The notes beneath the pieces were generated by a model that saw only the letters and a program-made list of their open reading frames with translations, was not told the origin of the DNA and made no database searches. The position numbers and the translations under genes are program-made. This document shows, in pieces, positions 5,736 through 35,462 of a DNA stretch of 41,944 bases. Numbering within the stretch: the first letter of the stretch is position 1; every line of letters starts with the position of its first letter. This stretch comes from Flavobacteriales bacterium (GTDB taxonomy: Bacteria; Bacteroidota; Bacteroidia; UBA10329), in assembly GCA_021739625.1 (NCBI GenBank), contig JAIPBJ010000015.1, positions 1-41,944 on the forward strand. The letters are read 5' to 3'.

Positions 5736-5751
5736 GATGGATGTGATTTGA

Positions 5752-5812
5752 TGGAGTACAAAATTCCCATTGCCCGCTTTACGGTGCATTAACGATTGTT
5801 AACGATTCAGCT
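5752..5812 (-). promoter_or_regulatory. Shared upstream element, copy 1
   Basis: These 61 bases lie 16 bases upstream of the T9SS protein start and match 55/61 of the element at 9352-9412, which sits 15 bases upstream of S74 paralogue 2. In gene sense it reads AGCTGAATCGTTAAC... and ends in GGAATTTTGTA, a near match to the TAnnTTTG -7 element. It contains TTAACGATTGTTAA (5789-5802), one mismatch from the perfect palindrome in copy 2. Likely a promoter with an operator. Confidence 0.65.
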
Positions 5813-5880: not shown

Positions 5881-8800
5881 TTACCGCTGTGCCTTGGCAT
5901 TCATCATCAGCACATCCTCAATATGCCGTAGGCGTGCTTCATTGTCCGTGCTTATCTTATGAAGTTCCGATCTGAGCAAGGTGTTTTCCTTCTCCAATCG
6001 GCCATTCTGATCTTGTAGCTCCTCCACTTGTTCGGCCAGCTCCTGTATGGCACCGATACCGATGGAGAACAATTGGTCGTAATCCACGGCACGGAAATCG
6101 TTCACTTGCTTACCGTAAACGAACACCAGATCTTCAACGGTATCCATTTTCACGGTGAAGGTGTTGGCATCGGCCACATCCTCTACGGTTACTTCCAAGG
6201 TTTCATCGTTGGTCATCAGTTTCAGCTTATCGCCCACCGTCAATGTGTGCGGTTTTTCAACCGTGATGGCAGCCAGTTGCGTCTCTGCGTTGTAGCTGAT
6301 GTTGGTGCTGCGCGCAAATACATTAGGAATGTAATCGGTGTTCTTGTTGATAGCGTTCGGGTACACCTTTTCTATTTCCTGCGCAATGAAGCCTTGCTTG
6401 GTACGGGTGCCGTGTTCCAGCGAGTCGATGTAAGCGTATTCCGTCACCTGCAATTCATTGACCAACGCAAGCAGTTCCGCTTTTTCTGAACGCTGAACGA
6501 TGGTTTTGGCGCGGGCATCCGACATGGCGTTGAATTCCGAAGCACGGATACGGCCACTTGCCCAAATAGAATAGCTTATGTTGTTGGGACCGGATGTACC
6601 TGTGTTGCCAGAAGAATTGAGATAGCCGTAGGTGTATGAACCAGAAGCCTCTGTGCCCGAAACGGTAAGCTTGGCGTAATTCCATGGATCGGTAACACCA
6701 ATTCCCACAGTGCCCTGTACCAGCAGGCCGTTGGTCGGGGCGTTGTAAGTACCGGCATACCCTGCCCCGATCACCGTGCGACCGTTCACGTCAAGTATAT
6801 TCAGCGGGATGTCCACACCACCGATACCTACCTTACCATCACTGCTGCACATCAATACCTGCTGGCCGATGGCGCTGCCCGAGTGGCGCGCGATAACAAA
6901 TGAATTACCGGGCCAGTAATACGGTTCAGTTGGGGAATTGCTACCATCATAACCTATAGAATAGCCATAATTGTCGTTGTCATCTTCCCTGAAGAATATT
7001 CTTCCTCCTGCGTGGCTTCCATTTAACCCTGCAAAGGGTTCGATCTCAATACCCGCTTCTGAACCCGAATACATGGTGAATAATGTATTACCACCGTGCA
7101 CATGCACCAACCTTGCTGGAGCGGATGTACCAATACCCACGTTCCCTCCTTGATCAAGTACCAGTTGGTCTGGCACATTCAGTTTGCGTAATACAAGATC
7201 CCCATCAGAACTATGATACATGACCGAGCTGTTTGAACCTTGGGACAACTTGATGCCTCCTGCTTCTCCAAAGGCTGTGTGAGACACATGCAGTTTACTA
7301 TCGGGAGTTGATATACCGATACCTACGTTGCCGCTGACTGCCGAATACTGGTCACTGCCGCTTACGGTCCAATCGGCATCGTTTGCAGAAGAAATAGTGG
7401 TCGGGTTGGTCCAGGTCATCTTACCATTAGCATCAGAAACAGGGATGTAACCTGCCTGCTGGTTGCCATCTACCATTTGGATGGAGCCCTGTACATCTAA
7501 CAACTCAGCAGGGTTGGTGGTGCCTATGCCCACATTGCCGTTCTGGGCAATGGTCATCCGTTTGGCAAGCGGCTCATCGTAACTTGTAGAAGCAGTTGAC
7601 CGGGTTTTAAAGTGCATGTCTCCATAGGTTATGCTTCCCCCAGTTCCTTTTACTTCGTAAGTGAGTGCCGCTCCCGGTCTGATGTTACCCTGACCAATTT
7701 CACCGGAAAAGGCAATTCCCGTCTCGGCCCCGATATCGGTCAATCCTTGCACAGATACCTGATATTTAGATACAGCACCATTGTCCACAGCACTTATATC
7801 CCTATAAACATTGAGTGAAGCGGTGGGATTGACGTTGCCAATGGCCACATCGCCCTCATAGTCGATCTCCATTGCTGTTGTCAAGGGTGCGGTAGGATCG
7901 TTATAAATACGTTTCGTCTGAAAATAAAGCGACCCATAAACACTGGTGTGACTGATGGGGTCATAGCCGATCACGGCACCCGGTGTTATTGTCGGGTCGA
8001 TGAGGCGTGTTCCGAAGGCTATGGCAGCCTCATCAAAATCACCTTCTATCAACAGCGGATAGGCGCCAATGGGGCTGCTCGGGGTAAGTGGTGCATCGTC
8101 TAAGATATGAACCGTGGCCATGGGGCTGGCTGTATTGATGCCGACCCTGCTGTTGGCGTTTGTCACCAGCACATTGCCGCCTGCCTTTGCAAGGTTTACA
8201 TCGCCAGAAGAATAGTAGTTGAGACCCACATTCCCACTGTTGGCCACATTGCCATCCAGTATGAGCCAGTTGCTGCTGTTATTCTGTCCGTTTCCCTCTA
8301 TGGTAGACGCTCCGCTTGCCCTACCTATTCGTAGGGCGGTGCCGCTTGCTGGTTGGGCTATCTCCAGTTTGGCGCTTGGGGTGCTTGTTCCAATGCCCAC
8401 ATTTCCTGAGACTGCCGAGTACTGGTCATTGTTGCTTATGGTCCAGTCGGCATCATTTGCTACGGAAACCGTTCCACCCCCATTGCTGAGGGTAATATCG
8501 TTTCCACTGATACTCAGTGTCTGTAACTCGTTGGTGGTGCTGTTGTCATTATCGGCCACTGAAATGGTTCCTCCACCATTGCTAAGAGTTACGTTCAGCC
8601 CAGTTTGCGATAGCGTCTGTAGTTCGTTCGTAGAACTTCCATCACCATCCGCTGCCGTGATAACAGTGGTCGGGTTGGTCCATGTCATCGTTCCGTTTGC
8701 ATCTGAAACAGGTATGTAGCCAGCCGTTGCTCCTGTCTGCATCTGAATTTTTCCATTCACGGTCAATTTTTCCGGTGTGGTGGAAGTGCCAATTCCAACG

Positions 8801-9336
8801 TTGCCATTTGCCTGTATGCGCATGCGCTCATTGTCATTGGTCATCAGTACCAATGGCCAATTCTCCCTTACTCTGAGTTGAGGTTCATTTGCGCTGCTTA
8901 TCCCCAGAAGAAGGCCATCGCCAATGGCTGATCCACTACCTGTATTGGTGATCTGAAGCCATGTGCCCGCGCCATCATGTATGTGCACTTTCTGGTGAGG
9001 TACTGCAGTGCCTATGCCTATATCCCCAGAAACAGCTGAATACTGATTATTTCCGCTTACGGTCCAATCACTGTCGGCACCACCGCCCAGCGGAATCCAC
9101 GAGGCTCCATTCCAGCCCTCGAATTGCCCCGCTTTGAAACGGATGGTGCCAGCACCGCCCGTTGGGGCAGCATTGGAGTTGTTAATATCTGTGCCGATCT
9201 TGATCGCTCCATTCACATCGAGCTTTTCTAATGGGTTAGGCACATCAATGCCCACTCCTTGCTGGGAAAATGCGGTGGAAGCTACCAAGGTCATGGCAGC
9301 AAGGGCCGTTGCGGCAAATAGTTCAGTTGATCTCAT
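5881..9336 (-). CDS. Secreted S74 (chaperone of endosialidase) fibre protein, paralogue 2
   Basis: A 1151-residue exported fibre-like protein. The ATG at 9336 opens a signal peptide (MRSTELFAATALAAMTLVAS...FSQ); the upstream ATG at 9369 would place a non-signal stretch in front. About ten G-N-V-G-I-G-T/KLxVxG repeats are spread through the chain. Between them lie modules also present in paralogue 1 (MVDGNQQAGYIPVSDANGKM ... QYSAVSGNVGIG). The S74 domain has Ser939-Asp940 and Lys944 (SDARAK), then QGFIAQEIEKVYPNA. From there to FSIGIGAIQEL it is about 91% identical to paralogue 1 by eye, whereas the final coiled coils differ. It lacks the first paralogue's N-terminal domain. It sits downstream of a Crp-like gene with its own upstream element. 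Surface role inferred. Confidence 0.87.
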   Translation of the reverse strand: MRSTELFAATALAAMTLVASTAFSQQGVGIDVPNPLEKLDVNGAIKIGTDINNSNAAPTGGAGTIRFKAGQFEGWNGASWIPLGGGADSDWTVSGNNQYSAVSGDIGIGTAVPHQKVHIHDGAGTWLQITNTGSGSAIGDGLLLGISSANEPQLRVRENWPLVLMTNDNERMRIQANGNVGIGTSTTPEKLTVNGKIQMQTGATAGYIPVSDANGTMTWTNPTTVITAADGDGSSTNELQTLSQTGLNVTLSNGGGTISVADNDNSTTNELQTLSISGNDITLSNGGGTVSVANDADWTISNNDQYSAVSGNVGIGTSTPSAKLEIAQPASGTALRIGRASGASTIEGNGQNNSSNWLILDGNVANSGNVGLNYYSSGDVNLAKAGGNVLVTNANSRVGINTASPMATVHILDDAPLTPSSPIGAYPLLIEGDFDEAAIAFGTRLIDPTITPGAVIGYDPISHTSVYGSLYFQTKRIYNDPTAPLTTAMEIDYEGDVAIGNVNPTASLNVYRDISAVDNGAVSKYQVSVQGLTDIGAETGIAFSGEIGQGNIRPGAALTYEVKGTGGSITYGDMHFKTRSTASTSYDEPLAKRMTIAQNGNVGIGTTNPAELLDVQGSIQMVDGNQQAGYIPVSDANGKMTWTNPTTISSANDADWTVSGSDQYSAVSGNVGIGISTPDSKLHVSHTAFGEAGGIKLSQGSNSSVMYHSSDGDLVLRKLNVPDQLVLDQGGNVGIGTSAPARLVHVHGGNTLFTMYSGSEAGIEIEPFAGLNGSHAGGRIFFREDDNDNYGYSIGYDGSNSPTEPYYWPGNSFVIARHSGSAIGQQVLMCSSDGKVGIGGVDIPLNILDVNGRTVIGAGYAGTYNAPTNGLLVQGTVGIGVTDPWNYAKLTVSGTEASGSYTYGYLNSSGNTGTSGPNNISYSIWASGRIRASEFNAMSDARAKTIVQRSEKAELLALVNELQVTEYAYIDSLEHGTRTKQGFIAQEIEKVYPNAINKNTDYIPNVFARSTNISYNAETQLAAITVEKPHTLTVGDKLKLMTNDETLEVTVEDVADANTFTVKMDTVEDLVFVYGKQVNDFRAVDYDQLFSIGIGAIQELAEQVEELQDQNGRLEKENTLLRSELHKISTDNEARLRHIEDVLMMNAKAQR

Positions 9337-9351
9337 TGGACGGGGATTGGG

Positions 9352-9412
9352 TGGACTACAAAATTCCAATCGCCCGTCTTACGGTGCATTAACGATCGTT
9401 AACGATTCAGCT
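9352..9412 (-). promoter_or_regulatory. Shared upstream element, copy 2, with perfect 14-bp palindrome
   Basis: Partner of 5752-5812, at the same distance from its gene start. It carries TTAACGATCGTTAA (9389-9402), a perfect palindrome, followed by a second AACGAT. It overlaps the last 6 bases of the Crp-like regulator gene. The symmetric site suits a dimeric regulator; the adjacent Crp-like protein is the obvious candidate, but this is inference. Confidence 0.65.
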
Positions 9413-12230: not shown

Positions 12231-12437
12231 ATGCTTGTAGAACGCACAGATAAAGAGATCATCATCCGTCTGCCTGCATCGGTCGATTTTGATGACCTAC
12301 AGGATTTCCTGAGTTATTCCCGCTACAGGGAACTCACCTCGAAATTCAAGGTGAAGCAGTCGGAGGTGGACAAACTGGCCTCAGAGGTGAACCGAAGCTG
12401 GTGGGAGGCCAACAGGGACCGCCTGATCAAGAAGTGA
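12231..12437 (+). CDS. Putative antitoxin of a PIN-type toxin-antitoxin pair
   Basis: A 68-residue acidic/basic helical protein, MLVERTDKEIIIRLPASVDF... ending NRDRLIKK. The start is short and beta-like, the rest helical, as in many antitoxins of PIN toxins, though I see no defined DNA-binding fold. Its TGA stop overlaps the GTG start of the PIN gene (GTGA, 12434-12437), which points to translational coupling. The antitoxin role rests on gene order and size. Confidence 0.7.
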   Translation: MLVERTDKEIIIRLPASVDFDDLQDFLSYSRYRELTSKFKVKQSEVDKLASEVNRSWWEANRDRLIKK

Positions 12438-12883
12438 GGGTCGTAGTTGACACCAACATCGTTTTCAGCGCCCTGCTCAACAGTACGGGCACAATAGGCC
12501 GCCTGCTCATCAGTGCCGACCGCAGCGTTGATTTCTACACCTGCGAATTCCTGAGAGAGGAGCTGCACAAGCATCGGGAGAAGCTCCTCAGACTCACAAA
12601 GCTTTCAGAGATTGAATTGAGTGAACTGCAATCGCGCGTCACCAACAGGATTGAGTTCATTCACGAAGGCCTGCTGCCAGAAGATGAATTGATGGCCGCA
12701 GAGGACATGCTGCGCGACATCGACACCAAGGACACCCCTTTTGTCGCCCTGAACAATTGCTTGGATGCGATGCTCTGGACGGGCGACAAAGTACTGGTAC
12801 ATGGCCTGAGAAAGAAAGGCTACGCGAAAGTGATGACCACTCCCGAATTCCTTTCGCTGGCCGATCAGCTCGAAAACGAATAG
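12434..12883 (+). CDS. PIN-domain RNase toxin
   Basis: A 149-residue protein if translated from the GTG at 12434. The ATG at 12401 in the same frame would add 11 residues upstream of the fold and overlap the antitoxin by 37 bases. The PIN pattern is visible: the first acidic residue in VRVVVDTNIVFSALLN, a Glu in CEFLREEL, and later acidic residues in DIDTKDTPFVAL and LWTGDKVLVHGLRKKG. The family cleaves RNA with Mg2+; this one resembles the PIN_2-type proteins. Small overlap with the gene upstream, same strand and size ratio all fit a type II toxin-antitoxin module. Confidence 0.8.
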   Translation: MRVVVDTNIVFSALLNSTGTIGRLLISADRSVDFYTCEFLREELHKHREKLLRLTKLSEIELSELQSRVTNRIEFIHEGLLPEDELMAAEDMLRDIDTKDTPFVALNNCLDAMLWTGDKVLVHGLRKKGYAKVMTTPEFLSLADQLENE

Positions 12884-16600: not shown

Positions 16601-16846
16601 GATGCCCAGTTCATCGCGCAGCAGGTTGGCCATGGGGCCATCGGGGATGGCGGGGTCGGCCAGTTCGCGCAGGGTCTTGAGCACGCGGGTCTTCATCTCC
16701 TCTGCGGCCTTGTTGGTGAAGGTGATGGCGAGGATGCCGCGATAGGCGGTGTCGCCCTTGCTGCCAAGGGCGATGCGCAGGTATTCCTTCACCAGCGTGA
16801 AGGTCTTTCCCGAGCCAGCGGACGAACGGTAGATCTTGAATGGCAT
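13676..16846 (-). CDS. UvrD/RecB-type helicase-nuclease (AddA-like)
   Basis: A 1056-residue DNA repair protein that should unwind and resect double-strand breaks. The ATG at 16846 gives MPFKIYRSSAGSGKT, placing the Walker A loop at residues 8-15; the ATG at 16882 would add 12 residues. Helicase motifs follow: LAITFTNKAAEEMK (Ia), LVDEFQDT (II), VVGDAKQSIYRWRGG (III), LTVHKSKGLEFPVVI (V) and YVALTRPQERLYI (VI). The C-terminus carries a PD-(D/E)xK nuclease, with LRPDRVV and VLDYKTGG as the acidic and Lys segments, and an HHTQIAAY helix. This matches Bacteroidota AddA/RecB proteins. No AddB is next to it. The gene's first ~31 bases and its leader are duplicated at 17554-17594. Confidence 0.9.
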   Translation of the reverse strand: MPFKIYRSSAGSGKTFTLVKEYLRIALGSKGDTAYRGILAITFTNKAAEEMKTRVLKTLRELADPAIPDGPMANLLRDELGIGTEDLRRKASNVLRSMLHNYADLRISTIDSFTHRVIRTFAQDFGLPVNFEVELDTDRLITAMTDRLLAQVGVDKGVTDALIDLSLSQAEDEKSWSIDQVLTDMAATIFNEEGRFHLAGMKDVGMSDLIAIRRKLVGLVKADEAQTQATANDILQQIATAGLEVGHFSGGKNGMAGYFEKIVNGKLEMPNATVLKNLEADNWHASKAKAHEKPTIDALIPVMMDAYGSILSRLERMKRLGLIVRNIYGIALLDRMAEIVRDLQQEQEVLHIGEFNHLVSSVVMKEQAPFIYERLGHRYHHFLVDEFQDTNVLQWFNMLPLIDESLATDGLCLVVGDAKQSIYRWRGGEVQQFVELPSVHRTEYMRGHLEADPQLDVTLAQRERSLVTNVQEHALRHNFRTLPTIVDFNNRLFAAMQDDMPETLRVMYDGVSQLTPDGKTGGMVEVRFMPVPEGQRSYPDYLPDTLEQVLEWVEDCITDGYAPSDIAIICRSNQKGIATAQFLIESGHSVVSSESLLINSSPYVRLLVNLAVFIIAPHDTTNQAELVQHLCMARDETRLVSTRLAMVGAEKDRGVKALLKELYPDMRPSRLRQLPLFSLFEAMRHHLLGHIKQPHLIYFMDEVLEYARKEGNDLNGFLEHWAEQRAKRSIALTENREAIRILTVHKSKGLEFPVVIHPFADYDLDTKRNSIWLEVNDPEAQPLNRLYVKATSQLEGTDHEPALNRERELTTMDMFNMLYVALTRPQERLYISGRVKADEATADKPTDSAAGFLYRTLPKLGHVIEENRLTIGEREAPGPRKEEKRTHLDLRETGGPDWMSRIAIARPSQREWGDSAARDFGILVHDALAHVRTAADVPLAVQQLVEDGRIPESGADGLRLRILSIIGRPELGRLFSDTVTIRTEADIQMPGGQWLRPDRVVTTPDMTYVLDYKTGGKRPEHHTQIAAYRDALTALGHTKVQGLLVYMEDGEVVVGE

Positions 16847-16856
16847 GGGGGAAAGG
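16816..16856. repeat. 41-bp direct repeat, copy at the true AddA-like start
   Basis: 39 of 41 bases match 17554-17594. It covers the first 10-11 codons (MPFKIYRSSA) and 10 leader bases of the helicase gene. Together the copies bracket the secreted-protein gene at 16934-17488. Confidence 0.9.
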
Positions 16857-16933
16857 TAGGAAAGTGAAAGGCGTGTGTGCATCTTGGATGCACATGACAG
16901 ACCATGTATTCGCTTTAGCTAAGTTTACACCCC

Positions 16934-17488
16934 ATGCTGCTGCGAGCCATATTGATTTCCTTACTCACCCTGTCTGGTGGCACCTTGATGGTGCTGGCTC
17001 AACCAGCTGAGCAGGCTTCTTCAGGTCTCTATGGCAATTGGTATGTTGTGAAAGTCGATTATAGCCCAAAGTTCAAAGAAGAGCTTCGACAAGAACTCGG
17101 AACGGAATTCGGGTCAGTTGATAGAACCTTCTCCGAAACAACACTTGAAAAGAATTGGAACTGGGTTCAAAGGAATATCTCTAACCGGAGACACAGACTT
17201 AGGTTGGTCGAAAAACCGGAAGGTTGTTTGTCGCAGAAGCCTGGATCAACAGAACTATGGCCATTGCTGGTCACTTATATCACCGGCTGCAATAGATGCA
17301 TTTCCTGCGGAGATATTCGCAATGCTTCCTTAGTTCTTGATGGTTTCATCGTTTGTACCGCTAGAGGATGCTCCGTTGAAAATTCAGTGTTCTCTGATCT
17401 CGACAAACAGCTTCCGATGAGGATAAGGAACGACACATTGATTCTTGGAACGTTAGATACCCGATGTCTCTACTATTTGGTGAGATGA
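16934..17488 (+). CDS. Exported Cys-containing hypothetical protein
   Basis: A 184-residue protein. MLLRAILISLLTLSGGTLMVLAQ is a good signal peptide. The mature start SGLYGNWYVVKVDYSPKFKEEL recalls lipocalin-like or META-like beta-barrel entries (G-x-W start), but this is weak. Cysteines cluster in TGCNRCISCGD and again in FIVCTARGCSV and DTRCLYYL. Base composition is more AT-rich than in the flanking genes. It is oriented opposite to the helicase and lies between two 41-bp copies of the helicase start, so it looks inserted. A TAAGTTTA box (one off the -7 consensus) lies just before the ATG. A hairpin (TGTGCATC-ttg-GATGCACA, 16876-16894) lies in the divergent gap. Function unknown. Confidence 0.6.
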   Translation: MLLRAILISLLTLSGGTLMVLAQPAEQASSGLYGNWYVVKVDYSPKFKEELRQELGTEFGSVDRTFSETTLEKNWNWVQRNISNRRHRLRLVEKPEGCLSQKPGSTELWPLLVTYITGCNRCISCGDIRNASLVLDGFIVCTARGCSVENSVFSDLDKQLPMRIRNDTLILGTLDTRCLYYLVR

Positions 17489-17697
17489 GCCGGGAGGCCT
17501 TATGGGTTAGAACATAGAGGCGGGCGAAGAATGAATACCAGATTGTCCCAAATCAGCAGACGAACGGTAAATCTTGAATGGCATGGGGGAAAGGGGAGAA
17601 TGAAAATGGGTAATAGGAAAATGGGGAAATAGTGCCTTTGGGGCACCACCTGTCTCCAACCTTGAACTTGAAACCTTAAACCAGAAATCCCTTTCTC
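17489..17697. repeat. Intergenic region with second copy of the AddA-like gene start (17554-17594)
   Basis: On the minus strand 17584 downwards reads ATG CCA TTC AAG..., i.e. MPFKIYRSSA and then loses similarity, so it is a relic of the helicase start and not a gene. The rest (17595-17697) is purine-rich sequence; I see nothing else in it. Confidence 0.85.
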
Positions 17698-20212: not shown

Positions 20213-20841
20213 GGGGTCAGGTTCTCAGCAGGTCAGGTTCTCAGCGGATCGGCTTTTCAGGAAAGGAGGATCAGGCCCGTCCGGGTGTCCTTTTATCAGA
20301 GGGTAATTATCACTCGGGATAATATCACCATCGTCCATGGTGTGACTCCTTCCTACTATCGCGTGCCTTGCATCGGGGTGCTGATGGCCCTGCGGAAGCG
20401 ACATGTCCATTTTCTGAACCGATAGGGTGGGCCTCAATGGTGATGGAGCAGCCTCAGATGCACATTTTTTGTGTTTCGATGGAACGCAAGCGGCCCCTTT
20501 ACGCTCGGACAGGCCCGCAAAAGGTTCGGACAGGCCTCCTTGACGCTCGGACAGGTCTGCGAAAGGTTCGGACAGGCCTCCTTGAGGCATGGACAGGCCC
20601 GCGAAAAGTTCGGACAAGCGCACAAAAAGCCCGGACAGGCCCTCAAAAGGCCCGGACAGGCCTGCTTGAAGTTCGGAAGCTCCCGCATGCTCCTTCAATT
20701 GACAATCGGGCCTCGGGTCTGCATGAGAACCGGACCCGCATCAAACACCGGGCACCTTGTTCGGACAATGGAGGATGGAGACCGCAGCGCCAAGACCGCT
20801 CGAAGACCTGCAATGCCGACAACCTGATGACCTGATGCGCT
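20213..20841. other. Convergent intergenic region carrying a 21-bp array
   Basis: Between two convergent genes I see no credible gene. It holds a 15-bp tandem doublet (GGTCAGGTTCTCAGC, from about 20217), unremarkable sequence to 20484, and the tandem array at 20485-20694. Frames across the array are open on both strands only because the unit is a multiple of three. Confidence 0.7.
20485..20694. repeat. 21-bp tandem repeat array 1 (about 10 units)
   Basis: Eight clear units (20506-20673) plus degenerate units at each end. Each has a conserved half CGGACAGGCC and a more variable 11-base half ending AAGGTT, GACGCT or similar. Unit length is exactly 21 and units abut without spacers, so it is not a CRISPR. 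On the minus strand one frame reads as L-S-E-x-F-A-G heptads. No promoter or start points to a gene. Confidence 0.9.
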
Positions 20842-32123: not shown

Positions 32124-32160
32124 TCAAAAAATCTCGCCCCGCTCTTCGCCTTGTCCACAA
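32124..32160 (-). pseudogene. fadJ 3'-end relic A
   Basis: 35 of 38 aligned positions match relic B. It encodes the VDKAKSG end of the fadJ protein on the minus strand; a one-base deletion removes the stop from frame. It is the shortest and most decayed copy. Confidence 0.75.
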
Positions 32161-32162
32161 CG

Positions 32163-32414
32163 GCCCACCTGAGTCTGTGAGGGTCGACCTGTCTTCGGGA
32201 AGCCTCGACATGTGTTCCGGAAGGGTCAACCCAAGTTCAGGAAGGTGGCAACCGTGTTCAGGAAGGTGGCAACCGTGTTCAGGAAGGGGCAACCCAAGTT
32301 CAGGAAGGGGCAACCCAAGTTCGGGAAGGGGCAACCCAAGTTTGGGAAGGGTCAACCCAAGTTCGGGAAGGGGCAACCCAAGTTCGGGATAGGTCAACCC
32401 AAGTTCGGGAAGGG
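32163..32414. repeat. 21-bp tandem repeat array 2 (12 units)
   Basis: Twelve units, the outermost left one degenerate. The conserved half is GTTCGGGAAGGG (with A for G or T for C in places); the other half is mostly (G/T)CAACCCAA or GGCAACCGT. Units abut exactly. On the minus strand one frame reads as L-P-E-L-G-L-(T/P) heptads. No spacers, so not a CRISPR. Confidence 0.92.
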
Positions 32415-32451
32415 TAGATTGAATGCAGTGATATTTTATCCGATAGAAACC

Positions 32452-32586
32452 CCGAAGGGGGCTCACTGCTTTTCGCAGTGATCGCAAAGCCTCAATCGCC
32501 AATCCTCAATAAAACCTCCCCCCGCTCTTCGCCTTGTCCACAATGATCTGTGGTGGTAGGAAACGCTCACCGTGCTTCTCGGCAAG
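32452..32586 (-). pseudogene. fadJ 3'-end relic B (135 bp)
   Basis: 130 of 135 bases match 33282-33416, with no indels. It includes 81 coding bases, the stop codon and 54 downstream bases. The five differences lie in codon third positions except one codon (Lys for Leu), the pattern of a diverged functional allele. Confidence 0.92.
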
Positions 32587-32606
32587 TTGCACGGAGTTCG
32601 TAATTC

Positions 32607-32996
32607 CTAAATAGAATTTGGATTCATGTATTTCAGGCCGTCCACTTTCAGGAAATCACGGTCATTGTCAGCGACCAAAGTGCGGTCGTATGTCATGGCT
32701 GTTGCGGCTATGAGTGCATCCGGCAGCTTGAGTCCAAATGCTTTCCGTATCTCGATTGTTTTTCTGACCACGCGTTTGTCAATGCCAATTATGGTTGATC
32801 CCTGCACGAATTCGCTATAAATGAGCAGGTCTGCCTTTTTTGGCGGATTCCACGCAAGCAGTTCAATTTCCGATACGAACGAAAGCACACAGCCAGCGTC
32901 CACCACCATATCCAAGAAAGCCAGTCCAGCTTTTGGGAAAGTGCCATTCAGGTATTTGATGACCGCGCTGGTGTCTGTCAGATATTCCGTGTCCAT
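32607..32996 (-). CDS. PIN-domain toxin (VapC-like)
   Basis: A 129-residue protein, MDTEYLTDTSAVIKYLNG..., with the first acidic residue in LTDTSAVIKYL, a Glu in SEIELLAW, and the last acidic residues in KLPDALIAATAMTYDRTLVADNDRDF. This is the standard PIN pattern for a Mg2+-dependent RNase. Its start overlaps the end of the antitoxin gene by 19 bases. Target RNA unknown. Confidence 0.88.
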   Translation of the reverse strand: MDTEYLTDTSAVIKYLNGTFPKAGLAFLDMVVDAGCVLSFVSEIELLAWNPPKKADLLIYSEFVQGSTIIGIDKRVVRKTIEIRKAFGLKLPDALIAATAMTYDRTLVADNDRDFLKVDGLKYMNPNSI

Positions 32997-33205
32997 TCGT
33001 CACGAAGTGAGTTCAGTTGGGCATCTATTTCCTCATTGCTCATTCCGCTGGCCTTGCCACGTAACGAGGACAGTTTTACAGCACCCTTCCCTTTGCTGAT
33101 TGCAGATTTTTCCATCCGCAGTTCTTTCAGACGTTCAAGCATCCTGTTGTCGGTGAGCTGCAACACCCACTGAATGAGGTCGAGCTTCTCGGTTTGGATG
33201 TTCAT
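32978..33205 (-). CDS. Antitoxin of the PIN toxin pair
   Basis: A 75-residue protein starting MNIQTEKLDLIQWVLQLTDNR and ending SNEEIDAQLNSLRDEWTRNI. The helical start and the charged end are typical of Bacteroidota antitoxins paired with PIN proteins; DNA-binding fold not defined. It is first in the operon and overlaps the toxin gene by 19 bases. A near -7 box (TAACTTCG, 33228-33235 on the minus strand) lies 22 bases upstream. Confidence 0.82.
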   Translation of the reverse strand: MNIQTEKLDLIQWVLQLTDNRMLERLKELRMEKSAISKGKGAVKLSSLRGKASGMSNEEIDAQLNSLRDEWTRNI

Positions 33206-33281
33206 GGCAGATGGTTTTTGGTGACAACGAAGTTACGGATTGACAGCAACTCAGAACCCGTCAACCCCAATCGCAAACCGA

Positions 33282-33416
33282 CCGAAGGGGGCTCACTGCT
33301 TTTCGCAGTGATCGCAAAGCCTCAATCGCCAATCCTCAATAAAACCTCCCCCCGCTCTTCGCCAGGTCCACGATGATCTGTGGCGGCAGGAAACGCTCAC
33401 CGTGCTTCTCGGCAAG
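33282..33416 (-). repeat. 135-bp direct repeat, copy C (true fadJ end)
   Basis: Covers the last 27 codons of fadJ including its stop (33336-33416) and 54 bases downstream; partner of relic B 830 bases to the left. A small hairpin (TCACTGC-ttttc-GCAGTGA) lies in both copies just after the stop. Confidence 0.93.
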
Positions 33417-35462
33417 ACGGTTGAAGATGTCCACCGTCTGCTGCGCGCCCAAAGTGTCCATATAGCGGAACGGCCCACCACGGAAAGGAGGGAAGCCAAG
33501 GCCGAACACCGCCCCTACATCACCGTCCAAAGGATTGGCAATGATGCCTTCTTGCAAGCAAAGCGCGGCCTCGCTCACCATGCTCATGCCGATGCGCTCG
33601 TACATTTCCTTCGGGTCGAACTGCTTGCGGGTGTTGCCACCGAAGAAGCTGTAAACGTTCGCATCCAGTTCCCGCTTCTTCTTACCGTTCTCATCGTAGG
33701 CATAGAAACCTTTCTTGTTTTTGCGGCCGTGGTATCCGGCCTCGAACATCTTCTTCATCGCATCGCTCACCTTCACGCCTTTGCGCGTGGAAATGAAATG
33801 CTGCATCAGTTGGCCGCTCATGATATGCGCACCCACATCAATGCCCACTTCGTCCATCAGGGTTATCGGCCCCACCGGGAAACCGAATTTCTTCAGCACC
33901 TTGTCAATCTGAAGGGCATCCGCGCCTTCCTCCAGCATGTTGAGCGCTTCGCCCAATAGCGGGGCGAGGATGCGTGTGGTGTAGAATCCCGGGCCGTCCT
34001 TCACCACGATCACCGTCTTGCCTTGGCGCACACCGAGGTCGTAGCACGTGGCCGTCACCCAGTCAGCGGTCTGGTCGGTCACTACGATCTCCAGCAGCGG
34101 CATTTTCGGTACCGGACTGAAATAGTGCATCCCGATCACCTGCTCTGGTCGTTTCGATGCCTTGGCGATTTCGTGAATCGGCAGGGCAGAGGTGTTGCTG
34201 GCGAAGATGGCCGATTCGCTCATGTGGCTCTCGCATTCGGCAAGCACCTTGTGTTTCACATTCAGTTCTTCGAAAACGGCCTCGATCACCACCTGCGCCT
34301 TCTCGAAATTGTTGAAGTCAAGTTGACCCACGATGCGGTTCATCATGCGGTCGGCATCCAACTGCGCCATGGCCTTGCGCTGCACCTTCTTGCCGATGTC
34401 GCTCCAGACCGTTCTGCGCGCTTGCGTCAGTGTTTCCTGTTTGATGTCCTTCAAGAGGACGCGTATGTCCTTGGCCGCGCTCACCTGCGCAATGCCAGCT
34501 CCCATGAAACCCGCGCCCACCATGGCGATGGTGTCCACCGGACGGACGACACTTTGCAGCGGGTTCTTCTTCTTGTCCGTCATGGCGAAGAAAATACCCC
34601 GAAGTTGGAAGCTCTCCGGTGTGAGGATCAGCTTCTCGAAACGCTTCACCTCTTCGGCATAGCCCTTTTCCAGACCCGATTCCATGCCGATGCGGACGCA
34701 GTCCATAATCTCATAAGGAGCGGGATAGTTGCCATTCGTCTGACGGTCCACCATCTCTTTCGCTTTCTTGAAGATGATGCCGCGCGTGATGGGATTCCCT
34801 TCGAGAAACTTCTCCATGCCCGTGCGTTTGTCCTCGCGCTTCATTGGGGCTTTCACCAGTTCGTTGGCAAGACAGATGGCCGCATCGAGCAACGCCTCTT
34901 TGGAAGAGATACGGTCCACCAGTCCCATTTTCTTGGCAGGATAGGCGAACACATTCTTGCCTGTGAGCATCATGTCCAATGCTTTTTGGATGCCTACCAA
35001 TCGCGGCAACCGCTGGGTGCCACCACCACCGGGCAACAGACCGAGTTTCACTTCAGGAAGCGACATGATCGTTTTTGGGCTATCGGAAGCTACACGTGCA
35101 GCGCAGGCCAATGCGATCTCCAGTCCCGCACCCATGCACGCACCATTTATGGCCGCCACAATCGGCTTCTTGCTTTTCTCCAATCGTTGCAGGATCGCAT
35201 GTCCTTGCTTCGCAATCGGCTGCCAGTCGCCTTCTTTCTTCACATTGGCGAATGCATCGATGTCGGCTCCAGCAATGAAATCCTTCTTGCGGCTGATCAT
35301 CACTCCGGCCTTCACGCTGGAATCCTTTTCCAGTTCATCCATCAGCGGGTTGAACATGCCGATCATGTCCGGCCCGATCTTGTTCACCTTGCTGTCCTGC
35401 TCGTCCATCCAGATGATGGCGATGCCGTTTCTAATTTCAATGGAGAAGTACTTGTTGGTCAT
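33336..35462 (-). CDS. fadJ: 3-hydroxyacyl-CoA dehydrogenase/enoyl-CoA hydratase (FadJ-like)
   Basis: A 708-residue bifunctional beta-oxidation enzyme. The N-terminal enoyl-CoA hydratase domain (~1-190) has FIAGADIDAFANV and the oxyanion hole segment INGACMGAGLEIALACAARVA, with PEVKLGLLPGGGGTQRL. The dehydrogenase domain starts at ~312 with the NAD-binding IAMVGAGFMGAGIAQVSA, and contains NTSALPIHEIA and GMHYFSPVPKMPLLEIV around the catalytic His. C-terminal part: DEVGIDVGAHI and FRGGPFRYMDTLG. The chain is full length and intact. Its partner fadI (thiolase) lies upstream but is separated by two unrelated genes. Confidence 0.95.
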   Translation of the reverse strand: MTNKYFSIEIRNGIAIIWMDEQDSKVNKIGPDMIGMFNPLMDELEKDSSVKAGVMISRKKDFIAGADIDAFANVKKEGDWQPIAKQGHAILQRLEKSKKPIVAAINGACMGAGLEIALACAARVASDSPKTIMSLPEVKLGLLPGGGGTQRLPRLVGIQKALDMMLTGKNVFAYPAKKMGLVDRISSKEALLDAAICLANELVKAPMKREDKRTGMEKFLEGNPITRGIIFKKAKEMVDRQTNGNYPAPYEIMDCVRIGMESGLEKGYAEEVKRFEKLILTPESFQLRGIFFAMTDKKKNPLQSVVRPVDTIAMVGAGFMGAGIAQVSAAKDIRVLLKDIKQETLTQARRTVWSDIGKKVQRKAMAQLDADRMMNRIVGQLDFNNFEKAQVVIEAVFEELNVKHKVLAECESHMSESAIFASNTSALPIHEIAKASKRPEQVIGMHYFSPVPKMPLLEIVVTDQTADWVTATCYDLGVRQGKTVIVVKDGPGFYTTRILAPLLGEALNMLEEGADALQIDKVLKKFGFPVGPITLMDEVGIDVGAHIMSGQLMQHFISTRKGVKVSDAMKKMFEAGYHGRKNKKGFYAYDENGKKKRELDANVYSFFGGNTRKQFDPKEMYERIGMSMVSEAALCLQEGIIANPLDGDVGAVFGLGFPPFRGGPFRYMDTLGAQQTVDIFNRLAEKHGERFLPPQIIVDLAKSGGRFY

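Follow-up and report, generated by a model that had tools for sequence, protein, structure and literature searches.

A toxin-antitoxin pair between direct repeats of a fadJ gene end in a Flavobacteriales genome, probably inserted with a long duplication of its target

The window, that is, the whole stretch of 41,944 nucleotides analysed here, belongs to contig C11 of a draft Flavobacteriales assembly (G000; 3.69 Mb in 179 contigs). It carries an intact fadJ-type gene, downstream of which, read along the minus strand, lie copy C of the fadJ end, a 75-aa ORF, a PIN-domain gene, copy B of the fadJ end, a 21-bp tandem array, the end fragment A and a gene of the TPR-GAF-SpoIIE type (Table 1). The fadJ protein shares 97% identity with its orthologue in genome G006 and 85-89% with the other full-length orthologues of the genus.

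Table 1. Features of the fadJ locus and of a second gene-end copy in the window.
Feature	Position in window	Strand	Remarks
fadJ-type gene, intact	33336..35462	-	708 aa; Pfam: ECH_1 + 3HCDH_N + 3HCDH
C, inner copy, functional fadJ 3' end	33282..33416	-	last 26 codons and stop, plus 54 nt downstream
REP-like hairpin element	33268..33318	-	full length in C; truncated copy in B, 32447-32488
Putative antitoxin ORF	32978..33205	-	75 aa; overlaps start of toxin ORF
PIN-domain (VapC-like) toxin, putative	32607..32996	-	129 aa; PF01850, E = 2.4e-11
B, outer fadJ 3'-end copy	32452..32586	-	adjoins array; ancestral Lys codon retained
21-bp-period tandem array	32214..32414		9.6 copies; beyond outer copy B
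A, fadJ-end fragment	32124..32160	-	37 bp; far end of array
UvrD-like gene 5'-end copy	17546..17605	-	original 16808-16869; 85% identity; brackets ORF 16934-17488

B and C form a direct repeat of 135 nt with a spacing of 830 bp, identical at 130 positions (96%) and free of indels. Since a whole-genome search with B against C gave E = 7e-59, the repeat is not a chance resemblance. Fragment A aligns with B at 35 of 38 positions with one gap, and it has the bases of B at all three variant sites that it covers. On these points our results reproduce the preliminary description of this DNA, which had reported three same-orientation copies of the fadJ end, a B/C match extending through the stop codon and 54 bases downstream, an A fragment carrying the variant bases of B, and a 21-bp array bracketed by A and B. 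The same description had counted four of the five B/C differences (B base first: 32534 T/A, 32535 T/G, 32542 A/G, 32554 T/C and 32557 T/C) as silent, whereas we find only three silent codon differences (ATC/ATT, CCG/CCA and CTG/CTA), the other two falling within a single codon that reads AAG (Lys) in B and CTG (Leu) in C (33364-33365). Because Lys occupies this codon of fadJ in seven of eight genus relatives, with Met in G006, B and A hold the ancestral codon, and C, the functional end, holds a derived one. The suggestion that B derived from the fadJ of a related strain is therefore not supported; a foreign end, if there is one, would be C.

About 45 bp in the noncoding half of the B/C block correspond to a dispersed REP-like hairpin, ACTGCGAAAAGCAGTGAG. 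At two or fewer mismatches this pattern occurs at 11 sites in G000, sometimes in tandem, compared with none for a reversed control pattern, and the sites include window positions 32462-32479 and 33292-33309. An Rfam search of the two window copies returned no match. On the other side of B, fragment A together with the start of the array recurs on another contig (G000:C146:12866-13177), 76% alike and with junction and unit order shared. At that site, the fadJ-end fragment fused to the 21-bp array (L045, L009) adjoins an acyl-CoA dehydrogenase gene. As A belongs to a unit found at two loci, it provides no evidence for a separate entry event at fadJ, contrary to its earlier reading as an independent event there.

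Between B and C there is only the PIN gene with a small ORF upstream of it, in line with the earlier statements that the two copies bracket PIN toxin-antitoxin (TA) genes and that no integrase is present. A PIN or PIN-like toxin preceded by a small ORF is also the layout of VapBC and DUF433/DUF5615 pairs, from which the window pair differs in that its putative antitoxin matches no family (Pfam and NCBIfam searched). In a class-wide sample of 395 genomes, four, G000 included, had PIN orthologues at E ≤ 1e-28. The closest orthologue (72%, G006) stands beside a partner that is 64% identical to the 75-aa ORF and sits between genes unrelated to the fadJ locus, with no bracketing repeat in its flanks. 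A second PIN-domain gene in the window (12401-12883; PF10130 PIN_2, E = 3.9e-30) likewise showed no bracketing repeat.

A clean empty fadJ site was not found in any genome examined. Among the genus relatives examined, fadJ keeps its neighbourhood on the thiolase side but has a different gene order downstream; neither a second fadJ end nor the PIN gene is present there, and the SpoIIE-type gene has no orthologue next to fadJ. Therefore, the fadJ locus alone cannot separate insertion from local duplication. At 84 other loci searched for fadJ-end duplicates, every hit was a hairpin or a dispersed repeat, apart from one scaffold-gap artefact (L127, in a metagenome-assembled genome). The last 28 codons of fadJ are 69% identical between G000 and G006, against 97% for the protein. 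We rejected an end replacement as the cause, given that the fadJ body of G006 (L086 11482-13605) has 50-55% GC within a region of about 43% GC; judging from this composition, the gene body looks like a recent transfer into G006 whose breakpoint lies close to the 3' end.

Empty and filled alleles were found together at leuS. In G008, an OmpA-like gene, an array with a 42-bp period and a single leuS 3' end follow one another with no cargo, the flanks being conserved, and G000 has a single leuS end followed by an array. In G005, the orthologous OmpA-like gene and the array are followed by a 149-nt copy of the leuS end (94.6%), and a Schlafen AlbA_2 gene stands between this copy and leuS itself. 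In G004, a DUF433/DUF5615 pair separates leuS from a 151-nt copy (92%), which is followed by a 21-bp array where the contig ends; an OmpA-like gene lies near the end of another contig. In all four genomes, the array at leuS occupies the same relative place as at fadJ, and the outer leuS copy borders a pre-existing array, which is the position of B. Because the leuS copies within each species are each other's closest relatives, the two leuS events were independent and involved different cargo. The comparison that the preliminary description proposed for fadJ, namely, to look in related genomes for an empty site and for different cargo between copies of the gene end, gave such alleles at leuS (empty in G008; different cargo between copies of about 150 bp in G005 and G004) and no empty site at fadJ, where the downstream order differs.

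The same anatomy recurs at other genes of G000. We searched 0.98 Mb of it for direct repeats spanning a gene end with an ORF between the copies and obtained about ten loci. With copies of at least 80 nt and at least 85% identity, seven loci were found in these 0.98 Mb, one in 0.88 Mb of four relatives and none in 1.25 Mb of other genomes (other Bacteroidota and Gammaproteobacteria), a ratio that is indicative only, as the G000 stretches were partly picked via other hits (REP, PIN) and not at random. Among the clearest cases, the 5' end of an S66 LD-carboxypeptidase gene is present three times on C111, bracketing a PIN gene, which is interrupted by a single internal stop, and a Fic gene. On C19, a 132-nt copy (95%) of a TonB receptor 5' end lies across three genes with matches in the PDC-M64 candidate defence set, and on C90 a 218-nt copy (88%) of the 5' end of an FMN-dehydrogenase gene (FMN_dh) lies across trypsin-like and WG-repeat genes. 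An empty FMN_dh site was not found in the relatives, where its flanks are on different contigs. In addition to the UvrD-like copy, the window holds a 68-nt promoter-region copy (88%; 5745-5812 and 9345-9412) that brackets a 1162-aa gene (5881-9369), its original being the region between the end of a Crp/Fnr-type gene and the start of the next gene. Cargo with no match to addiction or defence genes occurs at L275 and at window 16934-17488. A paralogue of the 184-aa protein encoded at the latter position adjoins a Y1-transposase gene (L190, G000:C96).

Similar arrangements extend to other genomes. In G008, the 5' end of a thioesterase gene occurs three times, enclosing a DUF433/DUF5615 pair as well as a PIN pair; a leader is common to the outer two copies. 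In G005, a pair of gene-end copies brackets an HTH_3/Gp49 pair, the intact gene not having been located, and G010, which belongs to another family, has a DUF433/DUF5615 pair between copies of the atpG 3' end (84 nt, 100%). Among DUF5615 loci sampled across the class, only four of 30 were bracketed by direct repeats, compared with 11 of 300 control windows (P = 0.037); these are leuS of G004, atpG of G010, a locus in G189 bracketed by a tRNA-Met 3' end with adjoining hairpin sequence, and a locus in G097 bracketed by intergenic sequence. Several PIN loci, the G006 orthologue among them, have no bracketing repeat. The idea that cassettes entered repeatedly, rebuilding the gene end each time, is in line with these other loci, with serial cases at the LD-carboxypeptidase gene of G000 and the thioesterase gene of G008, but it is not supported for A at fadJ.

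Here, we propose that a PIN-type TA pair inserted just downstream of fadJ and that the event left a long direct repeat of its target, at least 135 bp in length; we assign this reading a probability of roughly 0.6. B would most likely be the resident fadJ 3' end, still in its former place next to the 21-bp array, and C would be the end that fadJ now uses. Each locus would then go back to one insertion event in which a long part of the target was duplicated. Such a product would result from single-crossover integration or from one-sided homology-assisted joining, which we infer as the mechanism. A dedicated site-specific system is not indicated, because both the copy length and the target vary and no recombinase is present in the cargo. 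The location at gene ends may reflect selection and not target preference, since in a dense genome only duplications that span a gene end spare the neighbouring gene. Direct repeats would also permit precise loss of the cargo by recombination, a loss that would be costly where a TA pair is carried; the prominence of addiction and defence genes among the cargo may have this cause.

The strongest competitor, which we nonetheless consider unlikely, is a local tandem duplication of a unit of about 830 bp (TA pair, REP-like element and fadJ end), after which the TA pair was deleted from the first copy and B was left behind. Such a duplication would explain the common orientation and the near identity of B and C, whose noncoding parts are identical, without any incoming DNA, and B could have kept the ancestral state while C changed later. 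However, two events would be needed at every locus, and at leuS two species independently have different cargo beside an otherwise empty-type flank. Furthermore, the differences pooled over seven copy pairs (35.5 synonymous to 26.5 nonsynonymous) are more often silent than a local copy followed by decay would predict (P = 0.002-0.023 for a transition bias of 1 to 4), although this argument is weak. The synonymous excess weakly suggests that one of the ends came from a diverged allele, which at fadJ would be C and not B.

Site-specific integration at gene ends, with the integrase acting in trans and the gene end serving as attB as at tRNA genes, appears more improbable still. The rebuilt gene end does give the geometry of attL and attR, leuS was used in two species, and one case (G189) lies at a tRNA-Met 3' end. 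Yet copy lengths range between 62 and 218 nt, unrelated genes serve as targets at their 5' as well as their 3' ends, no common core was seen, and no recombinase family occurs among the scanned cargo. The variable copy lengths and unrelated targets also lend no support to the tRNA-like site specificity to which the preliminary description had likened the locus. We regard it as very improbable that B is a REP-like element mobilised, together with the adjacent fadJ end, by single-strand transposition of the REP/RAYT kind: the block begins inside the dispersed hairpin and the genome has two Y1-transposase genes, but neither of these has a REP-like hairpin beside it, no such REP occurs in the other gene-end copies whose alignments were inspected, and the TA pair in between would be left unexplained. 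Finally, an assembly artefact is scarcely credible, for although G000 is a metagenome-assembled draft of 179 contigs and the fadJ-end duplicate at L127 in another such genome did prove to be an artefact, B and C differ at five sites and join different unique flanks, and the anatomy recurs in several independent assemblies.

Insertion with a long target duplication, reportedly described by Nobusato, Uchiyama, Ohashi and Kobayashi in 2000 (Gene 259:99), is the closest known kind of event for these loci, which would represent a variant not described before, with TA or defence cargo, in Bacteroidia and sometimes serial. As presented in two other reports, it is known for restriction-modification genes of Helicobacter pylori, where selfish or addiction genes lie between long direct target copies of variable length, as shown against a single-target allele, and a site-specific integrase is not required (PMC1643837, PMC3031569). 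Our loci resemble that case in the target repeats that flank the cargo (135 nt at fadJ, 132-218 nt at the TonB, S66 and FMN_dh genes, about 150 nt at leuS of G004 and G005), in the single-target allele at leuS of G008, and in addiction or defence cargo (PIN, DUF433/DUF5615, Fic, Schlafen AlbA_2 and PDC-M64-like genes). They differ from the H. pylori case in that TA or defence-like genes of Bacteroidia sit at gene ends, sometimes serially, with 21-bp arrays beside 3' ends.

Integrative elements with tyrosine recombinases use tRNA genes or the 3' ends of protein genes. As at our loci, the duplicated end keeps the gene intact and the displaced end marks the far border of the element. In contrast, the loci described here have no integrase, carry one to three cargo genes with duplications of variable length, include 5' ends and show no fixed attachment core. 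Insertion-duplication (Campbell-type single crossover) and homology-facilitated illegitimate recombination are known mainly from laboratory constructs and transformation. Both lead to the same product and need no dedicated enzyme, and for the present loci they are a proposal. In the open-licence literature searched, TA pairs with duplications of this kind were not reported for Bacteroidota.

The loci described here bear on how lone TA and small defence modules, which lack mobility genes, travel from one chromosome to another. They offer a footprint, in the form of a long copy of the neighbouring gene's end, together with one gene that has both empty and filled alleles, and with serial stacks; these features make the route countable across genomes and testable in the laboratory. 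The genomes compared are largely draft metagenome assemblies. We put forward only tentatively, and with more doubt than belief, that insertion with a long target duplication and without a dedicated recombinase is a common entry route for single TA or defence modules into Bacteroidia, and that the serial stacks which it builds at housekeeping-gene ends are retained because their loss by repeat recombination is toxic.

G000 is also rich in tandem arrays, with about 30 of period 21 (or 42 or 63) in the 0.98 Mb scanned and far fewer in four relatives. Their units are mostly unrelated and the arrays largely intergenic; examples lie at window positions 20492-20677 and 32214-32414, L094:12913-13200, L095:7544-7748, L216:11693-11954 and L282:11842-11998. 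A period of 21 corresponds to two helical turns.
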